64,000 nucleotides of DNA from Nitrososphaerota archaeon (lineage in GTDB: Archaea; Thermoproteota; Nitrososphaeria; Nitrososphaerales; Gagatemarchaeaceae), in the NCBI GenBank assembly GCA_027320425.1, contig DAHVLJ010000020.1, positions 1 through 64,000 on the forward strand, written 5' to 3'. Position 1 is the stretch's first letter. Each line of letters begins with the position of its first letter. The notes below the pieces were generated by a model. That model ran no database searches. It was given only the letters and a program-made list of their open reading frames with translations, and was not told where the DNA came from. A program made the position numbers and the translations under genes. This document shows positions 16,402-17,694 of the stretch, piece by piece.

Positions 16402-17058
16402 ATGCCAAATGAGGCGCAATCTGCCGGCGAACTAGTCAGGAACACGATTGAGCGAGACCCCGTCGTCAGGTTTGGGCTGACCAGACGGCTTGTAAACCAC
16501 AGAGCGTTGGCCAGAACGATACAAGCCGAGTCAGCCGCCGACGTGAGCTTCGACGCTATACTGAGTGCGATAAGACGATACCCGCTTCGGCGGGCTTACG
16601 AGCGACACGAGAAGGCAGGTAAGATGATTTCGAAGATCGGAATGAAAAACCGGGTCGTTGTGCTTTCTCTGAAGAATGACCGGGAGACCCAGAGAGCCAT
16701 AGCAAGATTCTCCGAGGAGGTCAACTACTCGGCGGGCGAGACGTTCCGCGTCATCTCCAGCATGGATTACGTCAGCGTCACGCTTGACGCTAGGAACTCA
16801 GATGTGTTTGAGACGCGCCTGCCCAAATCTGTCATCCGAAAGAAGACGGGAGGCTTGGCAGAGCTGACGATCGAGATGGAAGTGGAGGTGGAGGAGTCGC
16901 CTGGCGCGCTGGCGGTAGTCGTTGGAGAACTTGCGCTTAACGAGGTGAACATAAGGCAGTTGACCTCCGTCGGACCTGGAAGAGTCATTGTGCTGGTCAA
17001 CGAGAGAGATGCGTTGAAATCGTATCAGGCGCTGGAGATTCTGGCCAAAGAGGGTTAG
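16402..17058 (+). CDS. ACT-domain containing protein
   Basis: C-terminal EVEVEESPGALAVVVGELALNEVNIRQLTSVGPGRVIVLV typical ACT pattern. Confidence 0.6.
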   Translation: MPNEAQSAGELVRNTIERDPVVRFGLTRRLVNHRALARTIQAESAADVSFDAILSAIRRYPLRRAYERHEKAGKMISKIGMKNRVVVLSLKNDRETQRAIARFSEEVNYSAGETFRVISSMDYVSVTLDARNSDVFETRLPKSVIRKKTGGLAELTIEMEVEVEESPGALAVVVGELALNEVNIRQLTSVGPGRVIVLVNERDALKSYQALEILAKEG

Positions 17059-17194
17059 ATCCACTCTGTTGGCGCGTGGGAAACTTTGCATGTAGCGAGT
17101 CCCGCTCTGTGCGAAGCTGAGAAGAACCGGCAGGGGCAGATGCCCAGCGTAGGCTAAGTCTCCGCGGCGAGAACGCTTGACTCATTGAGATTGG

Positions 17195-17270
17195 TGGGGT
17201 CGGCCGGATTTGAACCAGCGATCTCAAGCGCCCGAGGCTTGAAGCCTAGACCAGACTAGCCGACGACCCC
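17195..17270 (-). tRNA. tRNA-Pro(CGG), CCA encoded (to 17192)
   Basis: Reverse complement GGGGTCG...CAAGC-CTCGGGC-GCTTG...GCTGG-TTCAAAT-CCGGC-CGACCCC-A-CCA. Confidence 0.92.
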
Positions 17271-17342
17271 TGTTTCGCGGCTCCGCCAGCCTCTGTTTAT
17301 ATCCTATCGCAGAGTCCAAGCGGGTCAATAAATAGCCAGGGC

Positions 17343-17594
17343 ATGTCTGTCTCGGCTATGCCCGCGTCGTGTTGCCCCGGTTCATCGTGTGATAGCCCTG
17401 ACTGCCTGCAGCTGACGGAGAGGGAGGCAGAGCTTTGCGAGGCCATCTGCGCGAGCCCCGAGCCGGTCGCCTTCTCCACTCTCAAGGAGACCCTCGGATA
17501 CCACCAGGAGGTGATCTCTAGGATACTCAGGCGGCTCCTGAACTATAGGACAATCGAGAAGGTAAAGGGCCGATACAAGCGGGTCGGTCAATAA
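17343..17594 (+). CDS. Small winged-helix regulator with Cys-rich N-terminus
   Basis: MSVSAMPASCCPGSSCDSPDCLQLTEREAELCEAICASPEPVAFSTLKETLGYHQEVISRILRRLLNYRTIEKVKGRYKRVG; wHTH pattern; upstream TATA-like motifs. Confidence 0.7.
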   Translation: MSVSAMPASCCPGSSCDSPDCLQLTEREAELCEAICASPEPVAFSTLKETLGYHQEVISRILRRLLNYRTIEKVKGRYKRVGQ

Positions 17595-17631
17595 CTAGCC
17601 CCAGTTCCTTGACTCAGCCGAGGTGAACTAG

Positions 17632-17694
17632 ATGGCGTGTTGTGGTTGCGGCTGCTGTGAAGGCTGTTGCAACGAAGAGAAGAAGGAAGAGTAG
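17632..17694 (+). CDS. 20-aa metallothionein-like Cys-rich peptide
   Basis: ATG ORF MACCGCGCCEGCCNEEKKEE*; 7 Cys in 20 aa; gaggtg Shine-Dalgarno-like motif just upstream; too short for ORF track. Confidence 0.6.
   Translation: MACCGCGCCEGCCNEEKKEE

Follow-up and report, generated by a model that had tools for sequence, protein, structure and literature searches.

A cysteine-rich winged-helix regulator paired with a predicted metallothionein-like peptide in archaea, and a promoter word shared with arsenic genes

Architecture of the locus

The stretch of DNA analysed here (the window; 64,000 nucleotides from a Nitrososphaerota archaeon) carries on its forward strand an open reading frame for a Cys-rich winged-helix regulator (17343-17594), which contains CCPGSSCDSPDC. 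Translation from the in-frame ATG at 17343 is possible, giving a range of 78-83 aa, and we prefer the ATG at 17358 because the conserved N-terminus of the orthologues and the promoter distance, with its TATA position, both favour it. The preferred form (17358-17594, +) has 78 aa. Starting 37 nt past the regulator stop, a second reading frame on the same strand (17632-17694) encodes MACCGCGCCEGCCNEEKKEE, a 20-codon peptide with seven Cys residues. It is preceded by the Shine-Dalgarno sequence GAGGTGA (17620-17626, +), which ends 5 nt before its ATG and is conserved in relatives. These elements had been picked out in a sequence-only reading of the window, which we confirm with one correction: the tail of the peptide contains Glu and Lys as described, together with Asn, and no Asp.

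The N-terminal arm of the regulator follows the pattern CC-x4-C-x3-DC, and two further residues, Cys27 and Cys31, are located in helix 1. AlphaFold models the protein as a winged helix (mean pLDDT 79) with the Cys arm at low confidence. Searches of Pfam, NCBIfam and the PDB, by sequence and by fold, gave no curated family assignment. All Pfam matches were below cut-off (HVO_A0261_N, TrmB, MarR_2 and others), with no ArsR model among them, and the NCBIfam model for Lrs14 scored 17.4 bits against a cut-off of 90. No solved structure was significantly similar in sequence (best E 0.034), and the fold search returned generic winged helices only, none at E ≤ 0.001, with SmtB at rank 48.

The peptide is very small and Cys-rich, with CC and CxC motifs and few aromatic residues, all of which are metallothionein-type traits. 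No other poly-Cys motif was found in the 64 kb window. None of the peptides submitted to Pfam and NCBIfam gave a match, including to any known metallothionein family. We infer a metallothionein-like product, its translation and metal binding being predicted.

Both genes are accompanied by copies of an asymmetric 11-base word, GTCAATAAnTA, that contains the TATA-like AATAAATA. The copy GTCAATAAATA (17324-17334, +), a putative operator/promoter word of the regulator, occupies the TATA position and precedes the ATG at 17358 by 34 bp. The other copy, GTCAATAACTA (17587-17597, +), overlaps the regulator stop codon and is likely the promoter/operator of the peptide gene. In the window's own genome (53% complete), the exact 11-mer GTCAATAAATA occurs once and GTCAATAAnTA exactly twice, both times at this locus. 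Immediately 5′ of the regulator promoter lies a tRNA-Pro (CGG; 17192-17270, -), and further upstream a 218-aa protein (16402-17058, +) has a DUF7523-like N-terminus and an ACT-like C-terminus.

Conservation of the pair and its promoter word

Scanning a genome collection, supplemented by order and phylum scans, yielded 41 distinct regulator loci. A small reading frame (at most 60 aa, at least six Cys, within a 260-nt window at the regulator 3′ end) was present in 27 of the 41, and such frames occurred in only 21 of 10,011 windows (0.2%) drawn at random from these loci and in 3 of 4,100 shuffles. These controls reject a chance Cys-rich reading frame. The two genes are a genuine pair that is kept in relatives. 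The earlier reading had made its case depend on conservation of the small frame and of the regulator's Cys cluster, and both held. In the regulator, Cys27 is invariant, along with Phe39, His49-Gln50 and Ser54-Arg55, and Cys31 is nearly so (at least 90%). The regulators of close relatives are 44-71% identical, and most have a poly-Cys frame directly 3′, for example MVCCCCGCCSQGCC..., MECCCCCCPDCCDHH and MACCCCCCCCDEVESKPK. Small frames in relatives are usually preceded by an archaeal Shine-Dalgarno sequence. Peptide length and spacing are variable, and most members have 5-12 Cys, compared with 7 of 20 residues in the window. Their Cys codons are mixed (89 TGC, 61 TGT), and it is therefore the amino acid, rather than a nucleotide run, that is kept. 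At two loci (L004, L057), ACG occupies the usual start position 5 nt past the Shine-Dalgarno sequence, and an in-frame GTG within that sequence may serve as the start instead.

The range of the pair extends from Nitrososphaerales to Caldarchaeales/Calditenuaceae/HR02-type genomes, the latter with MDHCCPDCCPYCCPP and MDCPCCGLCPCCDPPF, and includes a Thermoplasmata-labelled contig (L036) that is small and could be mis-binned. Other Thermoplasmata genomes combine the regulator and promoter word with a different Cys protein of ~85 aa; at L240, L239, L248, L250 and L251, the word stands 5′ of such a protein, which carries NSCC and a C-terminal CxC. One Thermoplasmata regulator has a gene with a ChrB C-terminal domain on its 5′ side (L040:2057-2530), and another has an MtrA+DUF4346 gene with GTCAATAAGTA on its 3′ side (L041:3233-4375). 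No peptide was found beside the regulators of L012, L029, L062, L065 and L067. Peptide-less regulators at L011, L012, L062 and L065 carry a C-terminal Cys tail (SLCTC, SLCLCCCC, GKCDC); it looks as though the regulator itself had taken over the Cys cluster.

The promoter word is conserved alongside the genes. GTCAATAAATA precedes 34 of the 41 distinct regulators, usually about 30-50 bp from the start, and a second copy, GTCAATAA, is found at the regulator 3′ end in 30 of 41 loci. These 3′ copies fall in all three reading frames or beyond the stop, and thus selection acts on the DNA. When the sites are aligned, the last three bases, which lie outside the search key, are still identical in 35 of 35. 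At L003 (1740-3082), a TnpB-like insertion (420 aa) separates regulator and peptide, and the peptide retains its own GTCAATAATTA and Shine-Dalgarno sequence. In genome G020, the word and a peptide with a GTG start, MCCCCGCCCDCCCDESGQESEKERL, stand alone (L167), and the regulator has no adjacent peptide. The suggestion that the two genes are co-transcribed consequently needs revising: having its own copy of the word, retained at L003 and standing alone at L167, the peptide is probably driven from a separate promoter and need not simply be co-transcribed with the regulator.

Genome-wide distribution and arsenic-gene company

Copies of the word are rare. The window's genome (G000) and G005, a complete 1.5 Mb relative, each contain exactly two copies of the form GTCAATAANTA, in both cases at the regulator-peptide locus, and in the regulator-bearing genomes tested the 11-mer occurs between one and three times each. 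Additional GTCAATAANTA matches at L158-L161 and L168 lie mostly inside coding sequence and were taken as chance. GTCAATAAATA is absent from five of six regulator-less genomes (G008, G009, G022, G025, G033). The sixth, G031, has 15 copies of the 11-mer against three for a reversed control, which we regard as mostly background. Two genomes (G064, G004; ~80% complete) have the word, and no regulator was found in them. In G004, an exact GTCAATAAATA lies 5′ of an Rdx-family (SelW-like) protein near ArsR/ACR3-type genes (L164, contig C11).

In relatives, extra copies lie 35-60 bp upstream of arsenic genes. Exact words stand 5′ of arsM in G132 and G010 (window genus) and in G116, G142, G129, G098, G147, G083, G055, G064 and G046. 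Many of these arsM copies are not on the same contig as the regulator. Exact copies also precede MIP-channel/arsC genes in G161, G179 and G098. Identities of ArsM, ArsC, ArsN2 and MIP follow NCBIfam, several of them below curated cut-offs, partly from the scanning of fragments. The f1/f9 genomes scanned, from regulator-bearing families, contain 14 arsM matches with scores of 242 bits or more, and 13 of these have the word within 60 bp at no more than one mismatch, ten of them exactly. One of the 13 belongs to G064, in which no regulator was found, and the exception is the second arsM of G142. The G046 arsM, broken off by a contig end, also has an exact word. Among 26 arsM genes examined in regulator-less genomes, none has the word and none comes closer than three mismatches. 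Frames of 285-599 aa with an ArsM-like domain and no promoter word (L187-L189, L201, L202) look like a different ArsM-related type. Arsenic genes are also found in the neighbourhoods of L029, L033, L035, L062 and L065; in the window's genus, no ars gene adjoins the pair.

An arsenic-response model and its rivals

We propose, with a probability of roughly 0.7, that the locus encodes an autoregulated, thiol-based metalloid response pair, most likely responding to arsenite, with a metallothionein-like peptide as its output. The regulator would bind the asymmetric word GTCAATAAnTA where it overlaps the TATA/BRE region, and would probably act there as a repressor of its own promoter, of the peptide promoter and, where present, of arsM, MIP-arsC and similar promoters. 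The N-terminal Cys arm, acting with Cys27 and Cys31, would capture a thiophilic metalloid, presumably As(III), and this would release the regulator from DNA. The induced peptide would sequester or carry the metalloid as a gene-encoded metallothionein.

Runs of Cys codons resemble the polycysteine upstream ORFs of mycobacteria, a known class named in PMC13236596 and PMC9094748, and the peptide might accordingly be a Cys-responsive leader, attenuating the downstream gene. However, the gene 3′ of the peptide is not conserved: some relatives have Alba there, others a convergent PPIase. The peptide also comes with a separate copy of the promoter word, can stand alone and extends beyond the Cys run as an acidic tail. 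We therefore reject this reading as hardly credible. Alternatively, GTCAATAAnTA might simply be a strong core promoter (BRE+TATA) for a particular TFB, rather than the regulator's operator. The TATA-like core is suitably spaced from leaderless starts, and promoter function could account for part of the word's conservation. Yet the 11-mer has few copies in the regulator-bearing genomes tested, is missing from five of six regulator-less ones, and is lacking at the arsM genes of regulator-less genomes. The rarity of the word and the arsM control make this explanation very improbable.

The same architecture might instead have a soft metal (Cu(I), Zn, Cd or Hg, for example) as signal and cargo, in which case the arsenic genes would have been recruited later in some lineages. 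CC and CxC motifs fit Cu(I) and Zn as well, two genomes of the window's genus (G005, G023) have the word only at regulator and peptide, and the regulator has a heavy-metal P-type ATPase and DUF1326 as neighbours at L033, and a cation-efflux protein at L035. Nevertheless, no copy of the word was seen 5′ of that ATPase or efflux gene, whereas every extra target that recurs and can be identified is an arsenic gene (arsM, MIP, arsC). Overall we consider a soft-metal system unlikely. That the same word precedes arsM, MIP-channel and arsC genes suggests arsenic, rather than Cu, Zn or Cd, as the signal for the regulon. The sequence-only reading's metal-response pair thus stands as to the pair, its Cys clusters and its metallothionein-like character, and the comparative evidence shifts the probable ligand to arsenic. 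In species of the G005 and G023 type, the pair may serve another soft, thiophilic metal, since the word occurs only at the pair and no ars gene adjoins it.

A promoter word common to both genes and to arsenic-detoxification genes is the new element here, and suggests an overlooked arsenic-response system. Genes of 20 codons escape annotation, and in the open-access literature we found no description of this gene pair or of any archaeal metallothionein. If our proposal is true, archaea gain a metallothionein-like peptide and a new family of regulators whose DNA site is defined. The regulon involved in handling arsenic could then be predicted directly for poorly cultured archaea of soils and hot springs. 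The 11-base word together with a poly-Cys frame would serve as a search key for uncultured genomes. We further speculate, as a doubtful extension, that the peptide takes the place of glutathione or phytochelatin as a gene-encoded poly-Cys carrier, which binds arsenite and passes it to ArsM. The arsenic sensors controlling it would then form an archaeal family not described before, with the TATA box as their site of action.

The closest parallels are SmtB-SmtA of Synechococcus and AzuR-NmtA of Anabaena, where an ArsR/SmtB repressor controls a metallothionein through a 12-2-12 inverted repeat (PMC8790569). Both share with the present pair, as predicted, a metal-responsive winged-helix repressor over a small Cys-rich metallothionein. 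In contrast, the regulator here matches no ArsR-family profile and has its Cys residues in the N-terminal arm and helix 1, its shared site is an asymmetric 11-mer rather than a palindromic ArsR/SmtB-type operator, and its peptides (~15-36 aa) have runs of adjacent Cys and keep company with arsenic genes. ArsR-controlled arsenic operons resemble the system in that arsM, arsC and channel genes apparently have a regulator in common; here, that regulator is of a different family, the targets are scattered over several contigs, and the most constant partner is the poly-Cys peptide. Lrs14 and TrmB-like archaeal proteins share the small winged-helix fold and weak profile similarity, yet scores fall well short of the curated thresholds (17 vs 90 bits; 18 vs 25.6 bits), and the present regulator has a conserved Cys set and a specific promoter word. 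Phytochelatins are made by enzymes, whereas the peptide described here would be gene-encoded and ribosomally made. The likeness is chemical, both being Cys-rich thiol peptides, which in the case of phytochelatins bind As(III) (PMC9917255).
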